From Elusimicrobiota bacterium (GTDB lineage: Bacteria > Elusimicrobiota > Elusimicrobia > UBA1565 > UBA9628), in the NCBI GenBank assembly GCA_030696455.1, contig JAUYSH010000024.1:1-33433 (forward strand): 33,433 bases of DNA. Direction: 5' to 3'. The notes beneath the pieces were generated by a model that worked only from the letters and a program-made list of their open reading frames with translations, was not told where the DNA came from and ran no database searches. The position numbers and the translations under genes were made by a program. Shown here piece by piece: positions 1,921 through 33,433 of this stretch (the first letter of the stretch is position 1; each line of letters opens with the position of its first letter).

Positions 1921-3242
1921 GCCGCGGGACCAAGTCCGTGCTCGCCCTGGGCGCCGTCTACCTCCTGTTCAGCGCCGCGATGAGCGCGCTGGCGCCTTTG
2001 GGGAGCTGGGACAACGTGGTCTTCGGCGCCAAGCTCTGGAACGAGGGCGACCCCGGCGGCTACTACATCCCGAGCGCCCACGAGCTGTATTCGTCGAACG
2101 GGCGCCTGCTCTACCCGGGCCACCCCGGCCTGACCTTGCAGATCCTCCTGCACGGCATTCAGGCGGCGTATTTCGCGGCCTTCGCGCCCGCGGGCACCGG
2201 CTTCTCCGAGTTCTGCGCGGCGAACCTCGCGCGGATCTTTTTGATCTCGAAGCTCGCGATGACCGCCGCGCACGCCGCGTCCTTCGTCCTGTTCCTCGCC
2301 TTCGCGCGACGCCTGCTGGGCAACGAGCGCGCCGCCCTGTTCGCGACGTTCGGCTACGCGACCTGCTGGCCCGTCGCCTATTATCTGTCGCGCGTGTCCG
2401 TGGAGCCGCTCATGGTCGTCTGCTTCCTGGGGACCTTCCTCGCGCTTTGGAAGCACGAGGACGCCGGGGGCGAGGGCTGGGCGGCGCTGGCCGGCTTCGC
2501 CGCCGTCTCCGGCCTGGCCACGAAGTTCCATCTGCTGTGGCCTCTGCCCCTGATCGGCCTCGCGGCGCTGGTCAGACGGCCCCAAGGCCTGCTCGCCTTC
2601 GCCGCGGCGGCGGCGGCGACGCTCGGGGCGTACTCGCTTTTGCTCGACTGGCGGGACTTCTTCGCCTACTGGGAGGTGCAGTCCGTGCTCGCCGGCAGCC
2701 CGATCCGCCGCGTCCTGCTGGGCATCCCGCGCATGCCGCTCGCGCACTGGCTTCCCGGGCCGACGCGCTCGGGACTTTTCCTGTTGTGCGAGGGCCCGCT
2801 CCTGGCCACGGCGGCTTACGGCCTGTTCCTGCACCTACGCCGCCCCGGCGTCCAACGGGCGCGCCTCGCCTGGCTCGCGGCGGCCGTCGGGTACACTCTC
2901 GCGGTGTGGGCGTACCGGTGCATCGCGGTGAGCGGAGACTTCCACGCCTTCCACTACCTGTTCCCTTTCATGCTCCTCGCCGCGGTCTTCTTCGGCGAAG
3001 GCTCCGAAGCGCTGCTCGCGCGGGCCCCGGCGCCCGCCCGCATCCTCTGGGTCGTGGTGATCCACGCGATCGGATTAAATGCCGTGCTCGATACGAGGGT
3101 CAAGGACGCGAAGTTCTATCGGCGCGTAAAGCCGTATCAAGCGGGTCGCCCCGGTCTTTCGGGACTCGGCATCATCCGGGTCACCCCGCCGACGAGTTCC
3201 CGATTGATCGACGCCGCAAGCAAGATTCCGCCGGTGTTGTAG
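1917..3242 (+). CDS. Polytopic membrane protein, GT-C glycosyltransferase-like
   Basis: The 441-residue product starts at the ATG that overlaps the previous stop (ATGA), with AAGGA a few bases upstream; more upstream in-frame starts would lie deep inside the preceding gene. It opens with a membrane segment at residues 7-27, then the loop motif GSWDNVVFGAKLW with Asp32, and later LYPGHPGLTLQ. At least eight more hydrophobic segments follow, and the tail is basic. This layout, one membrane helix followed by an acidic periplasmic loop, matches GT-C glycosyltransferases and mirrors the upstream gene. The two are surely co-translated, which suggests paired or sequential steps in making a surface glycan. 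Substrate unknown. No soluble glycosyltransferase partner is visible in the window because the locus continues to the left. Confidence 0.55.
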   Translation: MSRGTKSVLALGAVYLLFSAAMSALAPLGSWDNVVFGAKLWNEGDPGGYYIPSAHELYSSNGRLLYPGHPGLTLQILLHGIQAAYFAAFAPAGTGFSEFCAANLARIFLISKLAMTAAHAASFVLFLAFARRLLGNERAALFATFGYATCWPVAYYLSRVSVEPLMVVCFLGTFLALWKHEDAGGEGWAALAGFAAVSGLATKFHLLWPLPLIGLAALVRRPQGLLAFAAAAAATLGAYSLLLDWRDFFAYWEVQSVLAGSPIRRVLLGIPRMPLAHWLPGPTRSGLFLLCEGPLLATAAYGLFLHLRRPGVQRARLAWLAAAVGYTLAVWAYRCIAVSGDFHAFHYLFPFMLLAAVFFGEGSEALLARAPAPARILWVVVIHAIGLNAVLDTRVKDAKFYRRVKPYQAGRPGLSGLGIIRVTPPTSSRLIDAASKIPPVL

Positions 3243-5911: not shown

Positions 5912-5928
5912 GCCGGGCGCTAGAAGCG
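5904..5928. terminator. Possible bidirectional hairpin across two convergent stop codons
   Basis: CGCTCTAG pairs with CTAGAAGCG (one bulged A) around an eight-base GC-rich loop. The arms contain both stop codons of the convergent thiolase and PorV-like genes. There is no T-run, so intrinsic termination is uncertain. Confidence 0.35.
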
Positions 5929-6900
5929 GAAGGCGATGGTGATGCGGTTGACGGTGCCGAGGTCGCCGAAGGGGATCCAGGCGTAATCGAGGCGCAGCGC
6001 GGAGAAATCGAAGCCGGCGCCGGCGGAGACGCCGGTGAAGCCCTCGACGCCGCGCGTGCGGCTCTGGTCGAATCCGCCGCGGACGGCGATGGCCCAGGGT
6101 CTCTTCGAGCCGACGGCCGCGGCGGGGATCCGGCCCTCGATCCCCACGGAAACATAGGGATCCTGATCCACCGGGAAGTTGACGTCGAGGGCGGAGTCGA
6201 CGGTGGGAGTCACGTGCCAAACGCCGCCGGCTCGCACGCGGGCGGGCAGGGGGTCCGCGGCGCCGCCGAGCTTGAGGGGCGGGCCGATGTTCAAGACCGC
6301 GAGCCCGGCGTCGAGCGTGCCGTCGCCGATGTCGGCGACATGCTGGGCGAGCAGGCCGAGATCCGCGGCGGCGGTCATCCCGGAGCGGTCGTCGATGGCG
6401 GAGCGGATGATCTTGAGTCCGCCGCCGAGCGAGAGCGGTCCGAGGAGGCGCCGGGCGTACCAGGCGCCCAGCGCCAGGTCCGTCGGCGTGAACCGGCCGG
6501 TCGCGTCGCCGATGGCGTTGTACTTCGTCTGCGCGCCTTGAGAGGCGTAGACCAGGCCCGCCGCGAACGCGCCGTCGCGTCCGAGGGGCCGGGCATACGC
6601 GGCGGAGCCGGTATAGGAGGACTCGAGCAGCGCGTCATAGCCCAGGGCGACCTCGCTCGGAGACTCGGCCGCGATCCGCGCCAGCGAGGCGGGGTTGAGG
6701 AAGACGGCCTCGGCGCCGGCGCCGGCCGCGGCGGACACTCCGCCCATCGCCGAGGCGCGGGCGCCGCCCGGCGTTTTGAGGAAGGGCGCGCTCGTGGTCC
6801 CCGCGGCGCGGGAGGAGAAGGCTCCGCTCGGGAAAAAGCCGGCGCGAGCGGGAACCGCGGTTATGAAAAAAATAACCGCGAAAGCGGTTAAACGGGCCAG
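5920..6900 (-). CDS. PorV/PorQ-like outer-membrane beta-barrel protein, probable CTG start
   Basis: The downstream part (from Met52) has the hallmarks of the PorV/PorQ (UPF0164) family: FLKTPGGARASAMGGV, then AEAVFLNPASLA, then alternating strands ending in the aromatic terminus ITIAFRF. Family members are outer-membrane barrels, some of them shuttle proteins for type IX secretion cargo. The conserved motif starts before the first ATG (6747), so the gene must begin further upstream, yet the open frame back to a TGA near 6977 has no ATG, GTG or TTG. A CTG at 6900 would give an ideal signal peptide, with Arg3, a hydrophobic core, and cleavage after VPARA at residue 20, for a 326-residue precursor. 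It would overlap the upstream gene by 13 bases. A sequencing indel in the nearby T-run is the main alternative. The start is tentative; the family call is fairly firm. Confidence 0.72.
   Translation of the reverse strand: MARLTAFAVIFFITAVPARAGFFPSGAFSSRAAGTTSAPFLKTPGGARASAMGGVSAAAGAGAEAVFLNPASLARIAAESPSEVALGYDALLESSYTGSAAYARPLGRDGAFAAGLVYASQGAQTKYNAIGDATGRFTPTDLALGAWYARRLLGPLSLGGGLKIIRSAIDDRSGMTAAADLGLLAQHVADIGDGTLDAGLAVLNIGPPLKLGGAADPLPARVRAGGVWHVTPTVDSALDVNFPVDQDPYVSVGIEGRIPAAAVGSKRPWAIAVRGGFDQSRTRGVEGFTGVSAGAGFDFSALRLDYAWIPFGDLGTVNRITIAFRF
6866..6890 (-). terminator. Intrinsic terminator-like hairpin after the Pro/Glu-rich gene
   Basis: On the minus strand, TAACCGC-TTTC-GCGGTTA forms a perfect 7-bp stem with a 4-base loop, followed by seven T. 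The first three bases of the stem are the stop codon of the upstream gene. The element lies inside the proposed signal-peptide region of the PorV-like gene. Part of it can also pair differently: positions 6856-6880 form a 9-bp hairpin that uses the same arm. Confidence 0.65.
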
Positions 6901-7745
6901 ACCGGCCCCCGCCGCGGCTTTTCCTCGGCCGCAGGCGCTTCCGCGGGCTGCGCAGGTTCCGCGGCGACGGGCTCCTCAGCGGCCGCGGGCGGCGCGATAA
7001 TCTCGCCGAGCTCCATGCGGATCGTCTCGTCCGGGGAAAAAGTCTTCGCGGGGGCCGCGGGCTCGGGCAGGGGCTCGTCGACCGGAGGCGGCGGAAGAAC
7101 CTCGATGGCGACCTCTTCGGCGGGCTTGGGAGCCGCGACGACGACCTCGGGGGCCGGCTCCGGCGCCGGCTCGGGCTCGGGCTCGGGAGCCTTCTCGGCC
7201 TTGCGCGACTTGCGCGCCGGCTTGGGAGCCTCCTCGTCCGCGGCCGGGGCGGCGGCGGCCTTGAGGCCTTCGACGGCGCGGGTCAATTCGCCCAGGCGCT
7301 CGATCAACGCCTCGTCGCGGGTGGAGACAGAGGAAAGCTCGTCGTCGACGCGCTTGGACAACGCGCGCAGATCCTTGTGCAGGTCGGCCAGCTCGACCTT
7401 GATGTTCTGGAGGTAAACGACGGCCGGGCTGATGCCGCCCGTCGACGTCGCCGGGTCCCGGCGGCGCTCGACGAACGGAGTCTCCTCGACCTTCGGCTTG
7501 GGCTCGGGCTCCGGCGCGTCCGCGTGGGAAACGACCTTCGCGGAGGGCTCCTCGTCGGGGATGTATACCGGCCGGACGGCGACATCGGGGACGGCCGCTT
7601 CCTTGTCGGCGGCCTGTTCCTCGGTGGCGTCGGCCGCCTCGGAGGCGAGGCGGTACTGGCCCAAAAGGAAGAAGAAGAGGATTCCGCTGATCAGGAGCCC
7701 CGCCGACGAAATATAGAACCAGCCGTCCGCCCAGAGTCCCATCAT
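6888..7745 (-). CDS. Membrane-anchored Pro/Glu/Ala-rich protein of unknown function
   Basis: The 285-residue product has one N-terminal membrane helix (about residues 10-28, YISSAGLLISGILFFFL) and then a long hydrophilic region. A predicted coiled coil lies near the middle, from VVYLQNIKVELADLHKDLR through the Glu/Arg heptads that follow. It is flanked by low-complexity stretches, including repeated Pro-Glu units. It resembles proteins that span the periplasm or tie the inner membrane to other envelope parts, but no family is recognised. The start is ATG 7745: an in-frame TTG at 7784 falls inside the predicted -35 box. The gene lies upstream of the PorV-like gene, so a shared envelope role is plausible but unproven. 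A terminator-like hairpin begins at its stop codon. Confidence 0.7.
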   Translation of the reverse strand: MMGLWADGWFYISSAGLLISGILFFFLLGQYRLASEAADATEEQAADKEAAVPDVAVRPVYIPDEEPSAKVVSHADAPEPEPKPKVEETPFVERRRDPATSTGGISPAVVYLQNIKVELADLHKDLRALSKRVDDELSSVSTRDEALIERLGELTRAVEGLKAAAAPAADEEAPKPARKSRKAEKAPEPEPEPAPEPAPEVVVAAPKPAEEVAIEVLPPPPVDEPLPEPAAPAKTFSPDETIRMELGEIIAPPAAAEEPVAAEPAQPAEAPAAEEKPRRGPVWPV

Positions 7746-7755
7746 ATCTATAGGA

Positions 7756-7784
7756 ATGTTATCCGTACGGGGGGGCAAAGTCAA
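7756..7784 (-). promoter_or_regulatory. Sigma70-type promoter of the Pro/Glu-rich gene
   Basis: On the minus strand, TTGACT (7784-7779) and TAACAT (7761-7756) are separated by 17 bases. The -10 ends ten bases before ATG 7745, so the leader would be only a few bases long. No ribosome site is seen. Confidence 0.6.
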
Positions 7785-14704: not shown

Positions 14705-14938
14705 ATGGTGACCGGACTTGTGCTGGTTCGTTTGATGGCGGGCAAAGAGAAGGTCGCGCTCACCCGTATAAAGGAGATCAAGGGCGTCTCGCACGTCACC
14801 GCCGTGTTCGGCCGCTGGGACCTCGTGCTCGACATCGAGACCGAGGACGTCGGCACGCTCTCCAACGTCGTCGTGCGCGATATCCGCGCCACCCCCGGAG
14901 TGCTCTCCACCGAGAGCCTCGTCACGACCTCCATCTAG
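14705..14938 (+). CDS. Stand-alone Lrp/AsnC ligand-binding (RAM) domain protein
   Basis: The 77-residue protein is only the effector domain of Lrp/AsnC regulators. It has the beta-alpha-beta-beta-alpha-beta layout: LVLVRLMAG, a helix ending in IKEIKGV, SHVTAVFGRWDLVLDIE, a helix starting at TLSNVV, then IRATPGVLSTESLVT. The helix-turn-helix is missing, so it cannot bind DNA through that fold. Single RAM domains form dimers and higher rings that bind amino acids. The strong GAGGAGG site fixes the ATG. Its stop codon shares one base with the GTG start of the next ABC ATPase (TAGTG), so the two are translated in fixed proportion. A role as an amino-acid sensor for peptide uptake is inference from position. 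Confidence 0.82.
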   Translation: MVTGLVLVRLMAGKEKVALTRIKEIKGVSHVTAVFGRWDLVLDIETEDVGTLSNVVVRDIRATPGVLSTESLVTTSI

Positions 14939-15957
14939 TGAGCGAGCCCGTCCTCTCCGTCCGCGGCCTGCGGACGCACTTCATCACGCGCGAGCGGACC
15001 GTCAAGGCCGTCGACGGCATCAGCTACGACCTCCACCCCGGCAAGACGCTCGCCGTCGTCGGCGAATCGGGCTCGGGCAAGAGCGTCCACGCGTTAAGCA
15101 TTCTTCGGCTTCTTCCCGAACCGCCCGCCAAAGTCGTCGGCGGCGAAATTCTTTTCAACGGACGTGATCTTCTAAAACTAAATCAAGAAGACATGCGCGC
15201 GATCCGCGGCAACCGCATCGCGATGATCTTCCAGGAGCCGATGACGAGCCTCAACCCGGTCCTCAAGGTCGGCGAGCAGATCGCCGAGGCGATCGTCCTC
15301 CATCAGGGCGTCACCCAGGAGCAGGCCTGGGCCAAGTCGGTGGACCTCCTCAAGAAGGTCGGCATCCCTCACCCGGAAGAACGGGTGAACGATTATCCGC
15401 ACCAGTTCTCCGGCGGCATGCGCCAGCGCGCGATGATCGCCATCGCGCTGTCGTGCGAGCCCGACGTCCTGATCGCCGACGAGCCGACGACCGCCCTCGA
15501 CGTCACGATCCAGGCCCAGATCCTCGAGCTGATGAAGGACCTGCAGCGCGAGTACCACATGGCGATCATCCTCATCACGCACAACATCGGCGTCGTGGCC
15601 GAGATGGCCGACGACGTCGTGGTCATGTACGCCGGCCGCCCCGTGGAGCACGCCTCGGTCGGCGAGCTCTTCAAGAATCCGAAGCATCCCTACACCAAGG
15701 GCCTGCTCGGCTCGGTGCCCTCGATCTACGTCAAGAAGGAGCGCCTCGAGGCGATCGCGGGCCAGCCCCCCGACCTCAGCGGCGGCTTCACCGGCTGCCC
15801 GTTCGCGCCGCGCTGCCCGAGCGTGCTGGAGCGCTGCAAGACCGACGACCCGCCCCAGTTCCATCTCGCCGGCGAGCGCATGTCCAACTGCTGGCTGATC
15901 GAGGGCGAGTCGAAGGAATCCTCGCACCGCCACGCCTCGACGGGGGGAGCCAAGTGA
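14938..15957 (+). CDS. dppD: Peptide ABC transporter ATP-binding protein (DppD/OppD type)
   Basis: The 339-residue ATPase has Walker A GESGSGKS (42-49), a Q-loop [11 protein letters not shown], the ABC signature FSGGMRQR, and Walker [15 protein letters not shown] with the H-loop LITHNIGVV. The C-terminal extension has the oligopeptide-transporter cysteine motif GCPFAPRCP, followed by further Cys residues, typical of DppD and OppD. It should pair with the next gene to power import through DppB and DppC, which are encoded about 8.6 kb downstream. GTG is the start because it shares a base with the preceding stop; homology begins immediately ([11 protein letters not shown]). Dpp versus Opp cannot be told from sequence alone. 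Confidence 0.92.
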
Positions 15958-16970
15958 GCGAGGCGCCCCTGCTCCGGGTCAAGGACCTCAAGAAGCACTT
16001 CCTCGCCCGCAAAGGCATGTTCGGGGAGAAGACTGCGGTCAAAGCCGTCGACGGCGTCTCCTTCGACGTGATGCCGCAGGAGAGCTTCGCCGTGGTCGGC
16101 GAGTCCGGCTGCGGCAAGACCACCTTGGGCAAGCTCGTCCTCGCGCTCGAGAGCGCCACCTCCGGCTCCGTGATCTTCGACGGCCAGGACGTCGCGGCGA
16201 TGAACGGCGCGGCGCTCAAGAAGATGCGCCGGGAGATGCAGGTCATCTTCCAGGACCCCTACTCGAGCCTCAACCCGCGCATGACGGTCGAGGACATCAT
16301 CACCGAGCCGTGGGTGATCCACGGGATGCACAAGGACTCCGCGGAACGCGCCAAGACCCTCGCCAAGCTCCTCGACGACTGCGGCATCGCCAAGAGCTAT
16401 CTGCCCCGTCACCCGCACGAGTTCTCCGGCGGGCAGCGCCAGCGCGTCGGCATCGCGCGGGCCCTTTCCCTCGACCCGAAGCTGGTCGTGGCGGACGAGC
16501 CGGTGTCGGCCCTCGATGTATCCATTCAGGCCCAGATTCTAAACCTGCTGAAGGATCTGCAGAAAGAAAGAAAGCTCGCGTATCTTTTTATCTCGCATGA
16601 TTTCTCGGTGGTCCGTCATTTGTGCACAAGAATTTCCGTTATGTATTTAGGGCGCGTCGTCGAGACCGCCGACTCCGAGACGCTCTTCAACGACCCCCAG
16701 CACCCTTACACCGAGGCGTTGTTGTCCGCGGTCCCCGTCCCAGATCCCGCCATCGAGCAGCGCCGCAAGCGCATCATCCTGACCGGCGACGTGCCGTCCC
16801 CGCTCAAGCCGCCGTCGGGCTGCCGCTTCCATCCGCGCTGCCGCTACATGCGCGACACCTGCCCCGTCAACGACCAGATCCTGATCGCCGCGAAGCCCGG
16901 CCACGAGGCCGCCTGCGAGGTCCTGCCGTTCAAGGACGAGCGCAGCGAGGCCGCGCTCGTGGCGCTCTAG
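15954..16970 (+). CDS. dppF: Peptide ABC transporter ATP-binding protein (DppF/OppF type)
   Basis: The 338-residue partner ATPase has an N-terminal insertion after LLRVKDLKKHF (ARKGMFGEKTAVKAVDG), typical of OppF and DppF. It has Walker A GESGCGKTT, VIFQDPYSSLNPRM, signature FSGGQRQRVGIA, Walker B LVVADEPVSALDVS and the H-loop FISHDFSVV. The tail carries the GCRFHPRC cysteine motif. The GTG start overlaps the upstream stop (GTGA) and follows GGGGGGAG. With DppD it would form the ATPase heterodimer of one importer. The membrane subunits are separated from it by an OPT transporter and three binding proteins, an unusual gene order. Confidence 0.92.
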   Translation: MSEAPLLRVKDLKKHFLARKGMFGEKTAVKAVDGVSFDVMPQESFAVVGESGCGKTTLGKLVLALESATSGSVIFDGQDVAAMNGAALKKMRREMQVIFQDPYSSLNPRMTVEDIITEPWVIHGMHKDSAERAKTLAKLLDDCGIAKSYLPRHPHEFSGGQRQRVGIARALSLDPKLVVADEPVSALDVSIQAQILNLLKDLQKERKLAYLFISHDFSVVRHLCTRISVMYLGRVVETADSETLFNDPQHPYTEALLSAVPVPDPAIEQRRKRIILTGDVPSPLKPPSGCRFHPRCRYMRDTCPVNDQILIAAKPGHEAACEVLPFKDERSEAALVAL

Positions 16971-29556: not shown

Positions 29557-29593
29557 TTGCGTAACAGCCGGAAGCTAGCCTTCTCCTAATAGG

Positions 29594-32500
29594 ATGGCGC
29601 CACCCTCGATAAGCGCTCGTCGCACCGTGATCGCCGCCCTTTGCGCGGCCTCCGCTCTTTACGCCCCGGCGCCGTCCTCGGCGACCCCGCCGAACATCAC
29701 TCCGAAGGTCCTCCAATGCGACGGAAGCTTCACCACCGGCTCGATCACGAGCCATCCGACGCCGACGGTCCGGGCCGACGAGCAAAACAGCAACCCCGGC
29801 CTCAAGGTCGGACAGCGCCGCCTCAGCATCCTCTCCGCGACCTTCGCCCTCTGGCGCTTCGACGGCACCTATGGGGTGACCGTATCGAGCAATTACACGG
29901 TCGGCTGCACCGTGGGCTGCTGCAAGACCTGGTATTACAACCACGTGAGCACGAACGGCTCGGCCAACCTGGACACCGGACGCTGCTCCTACCGCGACGC
30001 CGTCAACGATGACTGCTCGGTGCCGTCGGACATGACCTCCTTCGGAACCTCTCACGCCCCGGTGCAGATCGGCGCCTGCCCCGCCAACCCTTCCACCCTC
30101 GCCGTCGCCAGCAGCAGCTTCCCGATCACCGCTCAGGGGCCGCTTCCCTTGGCGGGACCGCAGCCCGGTGACCCGACCTTGGGCCTGTCCTCATCGGCGC
30201 TTCAGCTCAACGGGTCGAGCCAATACGCGACCACGCCCGATTCGTCCGCCTGGGACCTTCCGGCGTCCTACACCCTCGCGGCCTGGGTCAAGCCCTCGGC
30301 CGCCAACGGCCGGATCGTCTCCCAACAGGACGCCACCGGCTATTGGGGCATCGCCGTCAGCACCGGCGGGCGGCTTCGGCACTTCGACTCCCGCGACGTC
30401 GCCGGCCCCGACGCCGTCTTGCCGGACTCGACCCCCAGCCTCACCGACGGGAGCTGGCACCTCGTCCATGTCGTCCGCCGGAACAGCGTCGACCGCCGCT
30501 TCTTCATCGACGGCCGGCTCGTCGCCACGGTGGTCGCCTCGAGTTCGGATTCCTTCAGCGGCCACTCGATCAGCGCCGCCCTCGAGATCGGCCGCGCCTC
30601 CAGCGGCGAGTACTTCAACGGCCTCATCGACGACGTCCGCATCGAACGGGCCGCGCTCGACCCCGACGCCATCCTCCTCGAATACAACACCGAGATCCAC
30701 AAGTATTCTGCGGACTCGGGAGCCACCTTCAGCGTCGCCGCCGGCGCCTACTCGGGCAGCCCGGCCAACGGCACCACGTCCGCCGTCACCTACATCCCGG
30801 GGGCGCCCTACACGGCGACCTCCCGGTGGAGCTTCGGCGCGCAGTCCATCGACGGCGAGAGCACCTTCAGCCCGACCTACGGCTTCACGATCGACTCCTC
30901 CTCGCCGGTCGCGCCGGGGCTCACGGCGGTCCCGACGTCGCCCAACGACATCACCTGGAACTGGAGCCTTCCTCCGCGGGTGTGCCTGCCCCCGGGCTCG
31001 GCCGCGGTCACCTATCACCTCGTCGACGCCCTCACCGACTCGAATCTGATTCCGCCGGGAAGCATGAACCATCCGACCTTCACGGTCGGAGAGAACGTGC
31101 CCGGATCGTCGAACCAGCTGATCGCGCGAAAGATCAGGGTCACCGATACGTGGGGTTCGGGCCTCAGCGTCGCGACGTCCATCTACACCTTGGCCAACCC
31201 TCCTCTGGCGGCCAGCGTCGTGCCGAGCGCCGTCTCGACCGGCAGCGCGCTGATCAGCTGGAATCAGAGCGGCAACCCCTCCTACACGCGCTACCTCGTC
31301 AGCATGTCCCAGGACTCCCTGTTCCTGACCGGCGTGTCGACGCCCGCGACGGTCGCGAACAATCTGACCGGCAGCTCGATCGCGCTCTCGGGCCTTGCGA
31401 TCGGCACGACGTATTTCGTTCGCGTTCAGGCGATCAGCGGCCGCTCCACCGACCCGTACGGGGGGACGGGCTCCGTTTTCATCAGCACTTCGTTCACCAC
31501 CTTGCCCGGCGCGCCGAACCTCGGCGGCGTCTCCGGCACCAACCTGATCACCTGGAACTGGACCGCCGTGCCGGGGGCCCAGTACTACAAGCTGTTCGCC
31601 GTCGACGGCTCGACCTTGTACACCGGCGGAAACCTGTCCCACCCCCAGACGGGGCTGGCGACCAACACCCAATACACGGCGCGGGTCGAGGCCGTTTCGG
31701 GCAACGGCGCCGGCGCGCGCGCCACAGCCACGACCTTCACCTTGGCCGACGATCCGACGGCGCCCGTCGTCAACGAGGTTCACACCAGCAGCATCATCTA
31801 CTCTTGGACGGGGGGGCTCAACCCCGCCTACACCTTTTATGAGGTCAGGGTCACCACGGACGCGAGCTTCGGCATCATCGTGAGCACCTTGACCGTCAAC
31901 GCGACGACCGCGACCGTCACCGGGCTGCTTCAGGGCACCACCTATTACGCCCGGGTGCGCTCGATCAACGGCGGCCAGCTCTACGGGCCCGGCTTCGCGG
32001 TGTTCGCGACGACGCGCACGATCCCCAATCCGTCGATCACCTCGGTTCTGGCGCCGCCCTCGGCCTACGTCCCGCCCAACGGCTCCATCGGGCAGTGGCA
32101 CTTCGACGAGAGCACCGGCACGACCGCGGCCGACTCTTCGGGGGGCGGCAACGCCGCCGCCCTCACCTGCGTCGCCGCCGCGTGCGCCTCGACGCCAACC
32201 TTCGTCGCCGGACCCGCCGGGCTGGGCAGCGCCGTGTCCTACTCCGGCGTCGCCGGCGGGCTGGTGATCGTCCCGGACACCGCGACCTACGACTCCATCG
32301 GCAGCCTCGCCGTCTCCGCCTGGGTGAATCCCTCGAGCCTGTCCCAGCCGGAACGCGCGGGCATCGTCGTGCGCGGCAGCGGCACGGTCGAAAACTTCGC
32401 GCTCGACATGTCCACCGACGCGGTGCGCCGCTTCCGCTTCATGGCCAAGCCGGGGCACATCGCGACCTCGACGAGCCCGGTCACTGCGGGGACCTGGGTC

Positions 32501-33433
32501 CATCTGATCGGCGTCTACGACGCCGCGGCCGCCAGCGCCACGCTGTACGTGAACGGAAGGCCGGCCTCCACCGTGCTGGCCGTGCCGGCGCGCACGGCGG
32601 CGACCCACGACATCACGATCGGCAATCGACAGTCGGGCATCGCGACCGGCTATGACCGCGGCTTTCTCGGCAGCATCGATTCCGTGCGCGTCCAGCACCG
32701 GGCCCTGACCGCCGCCGAGGCCCTCGCCGAATACCAGGGCAGCTTCGTCTCGACGATCACGCCGCCCTCGCCCAACAGCGCCGTCCTCATCGGCCTGGCG
32801 CCCAACGCCTTCGGCGCGCCCGCCACCATGAGCGTGTCCGTCGACCCCCTCACGCATCCGATCACGATCACGCCCGCCGTCCTCAACGCCGGCCTCACCG
32901 TGATCCCGACCGGCTTCACCCTCGTCCCGAACAGCCTCGTCGAGATCGTCCCGATCGTCGGCGGCAATCCGTTCACGCAGACGCTCGGCTCCTCGGCGAG
33001 CGTCTCGGTGCCCTATGCCGACGCCGGCGGCGACAACATCATCGACGGCACGAGCCCGCCCATGGCCGCGTCCGCGATCAAGGTCTACACGCTCAACACC
33101 ACCGTCAACCGCTGGGAGGCGCTCGAGAGCTACGTCGATACCTCCGCGCGGCGGGTCATCTTCTTCACGCCCCACTTCTCGGTGTTCGCCCTGTTCGCCC
33201 CGCTGACGATCGGCAGTTCGCTGTCCGAGGTGCGGGTCTATCCTATTCCCTGGAAGCCCGGCACACGCGGCCGCTTCGACGCCGCGGGGGTCACCTTCGA
33301 CCGCCTCCCGGTCTCGGGCACGATCCGCATACTGACCCTGGCCGGCGAGCGCGTGCGGGAGTTCACCTTCGACGGCGGCGCCTCCGGCTCGATCGTCTGG
33401 AACGGCGTGACCGACTGGGGCCAGCGCGCCGCC
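29594..33433 (+). CDS. Large secreted LamG/FN3 surface protein with FlgD-like C-terminal domain (3' end cut off)
   Basis: The frame stays open from ATG 29594 to the window edge, 1280 residues, so the protein continues outside. A signal peptide (about 1-30, ending in APSSA) is followed by a cysteine-containing N-terminal region (to about 190). LamG-like domain 1 covers about 197-368 (LQLNGSSQYATTPDSS to FNGLIDDVRIERAAL). Fibronectin type III-like repeats cover about 436-820, with TWNW, SWNQ and TTYFVRVQA or TTYYARVRS strand motifs. LamG domain 2 covers about 832-1049 (GQWHFDESTGTTAADSS to GSIDSVRVQHRAL). The end, from Ser1210, is an FlgD/Por-type Ig-like domain with VRVYPIPWKPG and IRILTLAGERV. 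LamG domains often bind glycans. A surface adhesin or carbohydrate-binding role is inferred. No catalytic domain is seen. Confidence 0.85.
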   Translation, partial: MAPPSISARRTVIAALCAASALYAPAPSSATPPNITPKVLQCDGSFTTGSITSHPTPTVRADEQNSNPGLKVGQRRLSILSATFALWRFDGTYGVTVSSNYTVGCTVGCCKTWYYNHVSTNGSANLDTGRCSYRDAVNDDCSVPSDMTSFGTSHAPVQIGACPANPSTLAVASSSFPITAQGPLPLAGPQPGDPTLGLSSSALQLNGSSQYATTPDSSAWDLPASYTLAAWVKPSAANGRIVSQQDATGYWGIAVSTGGRLRHFDSRDVAGPDAVLPDSTPSLTDGSWHLVHVVRRNSVDRRFFIDGRLVATVVASSSDSFSGHSISAALEIGRASSGEYFNGLIDDVRIERAALDPDAILLEYNTEIHKYSADSGATFSVAAGAYSGSPANGTTSAVTYIPGAPYTATSRWSFGAQSIDGESTFSPTYGFTIDSSSPVAPGLTAVPTSPNDITWNWSLPPRVCLPPGSAAVTYHLVDALTDSNLIPPGSMNHPTFTVGENVPGSSNQLIARKIRVTDTWGSGLSVATSIYTLANPPLAASVVPSAVSTGSALISWNQSGNPSYTRYLVSMSQDSLFLTGVSTPATVANNLTGSSIALSGLAIGTTYFVRVQAISGRSTDPYGGTGSVFISTSFTTLPGAPNLGGVSGTNLITWNWTAVPGAQYYKLFAVDGSTLYTGGNLSHPQTGLATNTQYTARVEAVSGNGAGARATATTFTLADDPTAPVVNEVHTSSIIYSWTGGLNPAYTFYEVRVTTDASFGIIVSTLTVNATTATVTGLLQGTTYYARVRSINGGQLYGPGFAVFATTRTIPNPSITSVLAPPSAYVPPNGSIGQWHFDESTGTTAADSSGGGNAAALTCVAAACASTPTFVAGPAGLGSAVSYSGVAGGLVIVPDTATYDSIGSLAVSAWVNPSSLSQPERAGIVVRGSGTVENFALDMSTDAVRRFRFMAKPGHIATSTSPVTAGTWVHLIGVYDAAAASATLYVNGRPASTVLAVPARTAATHDITIGNRQSGIATGYDRGFLGSIDSVRVQHRALTAAEALAEYQGSFVSTITPPSPNSAVLIGLAPNAFGAPATMSVSVDPLTHPITITPAVLNAGLTVIPTGFTLVPNSLVEIVPIVGGNPFTQTLGSSASVSVPYADAGGDNIIDGTSPPMAASAIKVYTLNTTVNRWEALESYVDTSARRVIFFTPHFSVFALFAPLTIGSSLSEVRVYPIPWKPGTRGRFDAAGVTFDRLPVSGTIRILTLAGERVREFTFDGGASGSIVWNGVTDWGQRAA

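Follow-up and report, generated by a model that had tools for sequence, protein, structure and literature searches.

The locus described here raises the question of where translation of a gene begins when none of the usual start codons is available to it. The gene belongs to the PorV/PorQ family and lies on the minus strand at 5920..6900 of the window, the whole 33,433-nucleotide stretch of DNA that was analysed. The gene is carried on a 33-kb contig (G000:C87) of a draft genome of 4.0 Mb in 147 contigs. An in-frame TGA at 6976..6978 (minus) bounds the region in which translation could start. From this TGA to the first in-frame ATG (6745..6747, minus) there is no ATG, GTG or TTG, as the preliminary description had stated. 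The ATG encodes the Met of ...RASAMGG; it falls inside a conserved motif and is too late for a start, which bears out the earlier claim that translation must begin before it. In-frame ATT and ATA codons are confined to the hydrophobic core. The proposed start is a CTG at 6898..6900 (minus), here called P1, which overlaps the Val-Trp codons of the upstream gene. Read from this codon, the gene has 326 codons followed by a TAG at 5922-5920. Judged by eye, the protein shows what had been claimed for it: the third residue is Arg (Arg3), there is a hydrophobic core, and PARA-G resembles a cleavage site. The signal-peptide-like N terminus, LARLTAFAVIFFITAVPARA, is encoded at 6841..6900 (minus; by eye) and is followed by GFFPSG; orthologues have similarly hydrophobic N termini. 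From this and the comparative evidence below, translation very probably starts at CTG 6900-6898, a genuine and probably weak CUG start inside the tail of the upstream gene.

The gene product is a member of the PorV/PorQ family, as it exceeds the curated family cut-offs in profile searches (NF033709 at 150.1 bits, cut-off 90; PF19572 at 33.1 bits, cut-off 27). It differs from PorV, PorQ and PorVQ2 proper, scoring under each equivalog cut-off (PorQ 100.1 against 220, PorV 73.3 against 250, PorVQ2 24.5 against 325), and so was not identified as the type IX secretion PorV or PorQ itself. It is predicted to be an outer-membrane protein. A scan of named genomes gave 10 loci, of which 7 with at least 46% identity belong to metagenome-assembled Elusimicrobia or Elusimicrobiota; the remaining 3 (26-32% identity) come from other candidate phyla.

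The upstream gene (6888..7745, minus; likely ATG at 7745) encodes a Pro-rich protein with an N-terminal segment that by eye resembles a membrane anchor, and with the C terminus RRGPVWPV. No family was assigned to it, the protein having sub-cut-off matches alone in NCBIfam and Pfam; relatives occur in 39 of the 56 genomes of the order. Its TAA stop codon lies at 6888..6890 (minus), and the two genes overlap by 13 nt (6888-6900). The C-terminal motif PVWPV (6891..6905, minus) is dual-coding with the start of the PorV gene. At an E-value of 1e-50 or lower, 45 of the 56 genomes have an orthologue of the PorV gene, and Pro-Val-Trp-Pro-[Val/Ile]-stop stands upstream at all 45 loci. At both loci of family f4 (L066 and L067, which fall outside the 45) the motif reads PIFPI-stop. 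P-[VI]-[WF]-P-[VI]-stop is retained even where the PorV gene is absent or starts elsewhere, and the motif therefore probably has its own function as a peptide. A sigma-70-like promoter match (TTGACT-17-TAACAT, 9 of 12 positions, window 7756-7784) lies just upstream of the ATG at 7745, a position suggesting a very short leader for the upstream gene. A terminator-like hairpin, TAACCGC-TTTC-GCGGTTA followed by seven T (6866..6890, minus), begins at the upstream stop codon, within the part of the PorV gene that encodes the signal peptide. Loci L001, L011 and L013 share an identical 35-nt run around it, compared with 79-82% identity over gene nucleotides 61-900, and the hairpin is broken in L012. 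Derivation of the hairpin from a repeated element was rejected, as its 23-nt core (at most 3 mismatches) occurs once in its own genome.

Across the orthologues, P1 is the NTG triplet that the upstream Val-Trp codons (GTN TGG) create in the -1 frame. This triplet is CTG at 40 of the 45 loci, TTG at 4, GTG at 1 and ATG at none. The loci were sorted into three classes, the usability of a start being the analyst's judgement: 4 in class A, 11 in class B and 28 in class C, with 2 not assignable. Class A has a canonical codon at P1 in the PorV frame (TTG in L029, L030 and L065; GTG in L058). Class B has, or possibly has, a canonical start elsewhere, which is a GTG at a 4-nt overlap in L036, L037, L059 and L060; the other members are L024, L026, L028, L032, L035 (placed here despite an odd N terminus), L057 and L062. 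Class C comprises the loci with CTG at P1 in frame and no usable canonical start. Outside it stand the two unassigned loci, L063, where P1 is off the PorV frame, and L027, where P1 is off the aligned frame. In L027 (G010:C1; named copy L052, CP096137.1) the protein match is split over two frames; a run of T that follows the signal peptide could reflect an error of sequencing. Extra sequence of varying length lies between the overlap and the signal peptide in L061-L063 (genus g9); the CTG frame is open in L061 and L062, and differs from the PorV frame in L063.

The interval from the in-frame stop to P1 is free of ATG, GTG and TTG at 27 of the 28 class C loci; only L017 has canonical codons there, one 750 and one 762 nt upstream of P1. 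In-frame stops occur just 9-15 codons upstream in L021, L033, L039, L042 and L046. For 15 loci there is no canonical codon from 200 nt before P1 to query residue 30, and 14 of the class C loci lack one at any distance. The first canonical codon of the other 13 lies 21 to 69 nt behind P1, inside or past the hydrophobic core, and would leave a truncated signal peptide or none. P1 is the sole NTG codon common to all 28. The arrangement recurs in 28 of the 45 orthologues and is therefore more than a chance occurrence. As most relatives in the family share it, the CTG appears to be a genuine start and no artefact of sequencing. The preliminary description had left open a genuine non-canonical start or an assembly indel and had suggested comparing orthologues; this comparison favours the former. 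The figure of 28 in 45 does not count independent species, as all 28 fall within one family of uncultured Elusimicrobia. That branch holds 36 orthologues, of which 28 have the CTG arrangement, 1 has TTG and 7 are others, L027 and L063 included. The remaining 9 orthologues, in families f2 and f3, are all class A or B. Placed on the tree, the CTG label requires 7 changes, 4 of them forced by well-supported branches, and is compatible with a single origin followed by later losses.

A Shine-Dalgarno-like CGGGGG (6906..6911, minus) falls within the Arg-Gly codons of the upstream gene, 5 nt before the CTG. The organism's own 16S rRNA ends in an ordinary anti-Shine-Dalgarno sequence, GGATCACCTCC, with which CGGGGG can pair. 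In the 14 genus members that have the gene, the C-terminal codons of the upstream gene read CGG GGG CC[GC] GTC TGG CC[CG]. The Arg codon is CGG in 13 of them, which thus carry CGGGGG; L027 has CGA for CGG and reads CGAGGG. The Gly codon is GGG in 14 of 14, compared with a mean of 15% and a maximum of 46% in 33 control Gly columns. These controls are conserved columns of the PorV gene in the same species; like the control columns used below for the first base of P1, they share the species tree and come from the PorV gene, not from the upstream gene. Five genus genomes are without an orthologue. Three of these (L097, L100, L151) keep the upstream gene with [AT]PVWPV-stop; GCG, GCG and ACG, respectively, replace GGG, and the G-run is lost. 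The 3.0-4.0 kb fetched at these three loci gave only insignificant tblastn matches to the PorV gene (best E 0.059). Their Val codon is GTG in L097 and GTC in L100 and L151. The other two genomes, G008 and G013, gave no match to the upstream protein. Conservation thus covers the lack of usable canonical starts, the CTG and, in the genus, a G-run at silent sites that is absent from three members in which no PorV gene follows.

Over the rest of the family, the stretch before P1 is usually AAGG-, GGGG- or AAAGG-like. A Shine-Dalgarno-like stretch at suitable spacing is present in the window and the genus and missing at the class C locus L061; pairing before P1 is weak or absent in L061, L062, L063 and L065, and in L057 of f2. 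Modelled anti-Shine-Dalgarno pairing over the 45 loci averages -5.95 kcal/mol at P1 against -3.0 kcal/mol at control sites, which were in-frame positions picked at random 30-180 nt upstream. In 9 of the 45 loci (L023, L030, L042, L057 and L061-L065, with L063 equal after rounding) pairing at the control sites equals or exceeds that at P1.

The first base of P1 is a silent site of the upstream frame, and an ATG or GTG at P1 is one silent change away. Among the 36 family members with the gene this base is C in 35, T in 1 and never a purine; the two most uniform of 54 control columns have 96.7% and 86%. All 14 genus members have C here, a uniformity equalled by 2 of 89 control columns. In the whole order C stands at 40 of 45 loci, a share above that of all 44 control columns (maximum 87%). 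Finding at most one purine in 45 has a chance of 8e-5 given Val usage before T (pooled 55% C, 24% purine), a value that ignores kinship. The Val codons before TGG in 17 window genes (n = 14) are GTC 9, GTA 3, GTT 2 and GTG 0, and the scarcity of GTG at P1 may be a codon-pair bias. In class B, where P1 is unneeded, the first base is still C in 10 of 11 and T in 1. The CTG is partly forced by the upstream peptide, in which GTC-TGG encodes Val-Trp. Selection for Arg3 through the upstream Pro codon was considered and set aside, the bias of CCC (22 of 28 class C loci, 9 of 17 others) being suggestive only.

Other genes provide a further comparison. Among 24 conserved frames of the window, the PorV gene alone is without a canonical start near the beginning of homology (judged by eye, with OppD/OppF resolved and the frames at 2052-3224, 29593-29964 and 30197-33433 set aside). 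A second apparent case at 15186-16967 proved to be a false alarm. An OppD-like gene (14938-15957, GTG start) occupies its first part in a different frame, and an OppF-like gene comes next; the case shows that in GC-rich DNA a tblastn match of high identity can lie in the wrong frame. The PorV stretch behind the upstream stop yielded no gene besides PorV. The organism's own genome contains 18 further PorV-like matches; of the 9 paralogue loci examined (L002-L010), the signal peptide is preceded by an ATG or GTG at 8 and by a TTG only at L003. PorV-like paralogue loci from other genus members have an ATG in 6 of 6 cases.

Several other explanations of the missing start have to be weighed. The idea that a missing or extra base in the assembly hides an in-frame ATG draws on the run of seven T at 6872-6866, a classical site of error. 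This run is identical in L011 and L013, the corresponding stretch of L012 has the same length with a different sequence, and a usable canonical start is lacking in 28 of 45 orthologues; we regard the probability of an indel as negligible. A better candidate, still an unlikely one, is a start at P4, 9 nt after P1 and in a 4-nt overlap with the upstream stop, where termination-reinitiation would depend little on the codon. An overlap of 4 nt is one of the most frequent kinds and has been associated with termination-reinitiation (PMC10666635), four f2 orthologues (L036, L037, L059, L060) have a GTG exactly at P4, and P4 is CTG in 8 of the 28 class C loci. Against this, P4 is not an NTG codon in the other 20 (CTA 12, TTA 4, ATA 4), and the window protein would lose Arg3. 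The conserved G-run lies 5 nt from P1 and 14 nt from P4; mean pairing at P4 (-5.5) is near that at P1, but with a spacing of 11-12 nt in most rows.

The CTG could also be a by-product of the Val-Trp codons, with translation starting at ATT, ATA or ATC or reaching the gene by -1 frameshifting from the upstream frame. The upstream motif alone indeed forces T-G-G, GTC is the favoured Val codon (57%), and at all 28 class C loci the PorV gene is read in the -1 frame relative to the upstream gene. By eye, however, no ATT, ATA or ATC is shared by the 28, and the overlap in the window contains no X-XXY-YYZ slippery heptamer. Frameshifting would place the signal peptide inside a fusion, and in L024, L028, L032 and L057 the PorV gene uses a different frame and has a GTG after the upstream stop. 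Neither version explains the GGG bias or the absence of this bias where the PorV gene is missing, and we consider them improbable, somewhat more so than a start at P4. Initiation at the CTG of P1 is the preferred explanation.

The putative initiator tRNA of this organism was also considered. A Met tRNA (L125, G000:C119:5403-5476, minus), which looks like the initiator by comparison with known initiators, has the anticodon stem-loop CAAGGCTCATAACCTTG with A29-U41 and begins with U opposite A72. The A29-U41 pair replaces one of three G-C pairs that are called conserved. Of the 56 order genomes 44 contain the sequence AGGCTCATAACCT, as do 13 of 179 genomes of the class outside the order, where 7 of 10 scanned loci are Met tRNAs. 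The sequence GGGCTCATAACCC occurs in none of the 56 order genomes and in 18 of 235 class genomes. A link between this tRNA and the CTG start was rejected, since AGGCTCATAACCT is also present in families with canonical starts (6 of 8 f2 and 1 of 4 f3 genomes) and in the 13 of 179 genomes outside the order. The AGGCTCATAACCT sequence is at most a permissive background.

In the proposed mechanism, translation of the outer-membrane protein would begin within the tail of its neighbour's reading frame. The CGGGGG at 6911-6906, in the last codons of the upstream gene, would position ribosomes at CTG 6900-6898, and ribosomes finishing the upstream gene would probably help initiation there. Both the overlap and the in-gene Shine-Dalgarno-like stretch fit such a coupling. 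Most likely, fMet-tRNA would initiate at the CUG; as it reads this codon poorly, a weak and IF3-sensitive initiation is expected. The genome contains a match to infC, the gene for IF3, that exceeds the cut-off. The absence of purines from the first base throughout the family suggests that selection tolerates a weak start or maintains it. If sigR and FIB rep, described below, are a guide, the CTG may serve to keep the outer-membrane protein scarce and in a fixed proportion to the upstream protein. Use of the CTG, coupling, IF3 sensitivity and selection for weakness are what we infer from sequence comparison. A more far-reaching account is tentative, and we would sooner doubt it than rely on it: the family may keep CUG by selection for weak initiation, with the ribosome-binding site and the start held in synonymous positions of a neighbour's conserved C-terminal peptide, and the A29-U41 initiator tRNA may make the weak codon usable.

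A conserved CUG start is a priori unlikely, because such starts are rare, poorly expressed and seldom acquired. In E. coli, expression from CUG is 0.86% of that from AUG, and 0.024% of bacterial initiation codons are CUG (both figures quoted in PMC11497404); the same source describes the reason for this near-absence as unclear. PMC5622118 reports only 4 switches to a CUG start among 36 genome groups. A CUG with a toeprint signal in Caulobacter dnaA proved to be unused in vivo (PMC8443254). In the open-access literature, in which titles and the beginnings of abstracts were covered, the matches listed showed nothing on this gene or on CTG starts in Elusimicrobia; subscription papers mostly lie outside this scope. 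The proposed CUG start of most family members and the TTG or GTG found at P1 in sister lineages form a natural series in which codon strength can be compared with ribosome-binding site and overlap. A gene finder that accepts just ATG, GTG and TTG would probably lose the signal peptide of this protein in many genomes.

The locus shares individual features with several known systems. Termination-reinitiation pairs (PMC10666635, PMC6728339) likewise consist of two same-strand genes that overlap at stop and start. The overlaps of such pairs are -4 or -1 nt, whereas the window pair overlaps by 13 nt at P1 with a CTG codon; a 4-nt overlap results only if P4 is used. Like the start proposed for the window gene, that of the rep gene of FIB plasmids is a CTG with a good ribosome-binding site; it is said to be selected for just enough expression (PMC11983097, for this and the following statements on rep). 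ATG and TTG versions also worked, and most GenBank records set the start at a later GTG. The rep gene differs in being a plasmid replication gene whose CTG is supported by start-codon mutations and an N-terminal analysis cited from earlier work, and the available text describes no overlap with an upstream gene, unlike the window pair. The sigR gene of Streptomyces starts with GTC in 32 of 34 Streptomyces and with GTT in 2; IF3 represses initiation at this GTC, which has an extensive conserved ribosome-binding site, and a canonical codon in its place leads to overproduction of the protein (PMC5472188, here and below). In contrast to the window gene, sigR is the upstream gene of its pair, its codon is GTC, and stoichiometry and the effect of IF3 were tested for it, whereas the window gene is known from sequence. 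The likeness is that sigR keeps a non-canonical start across a bacterial group together with a conserved ribosome-binding site, as the window gene appears to do.
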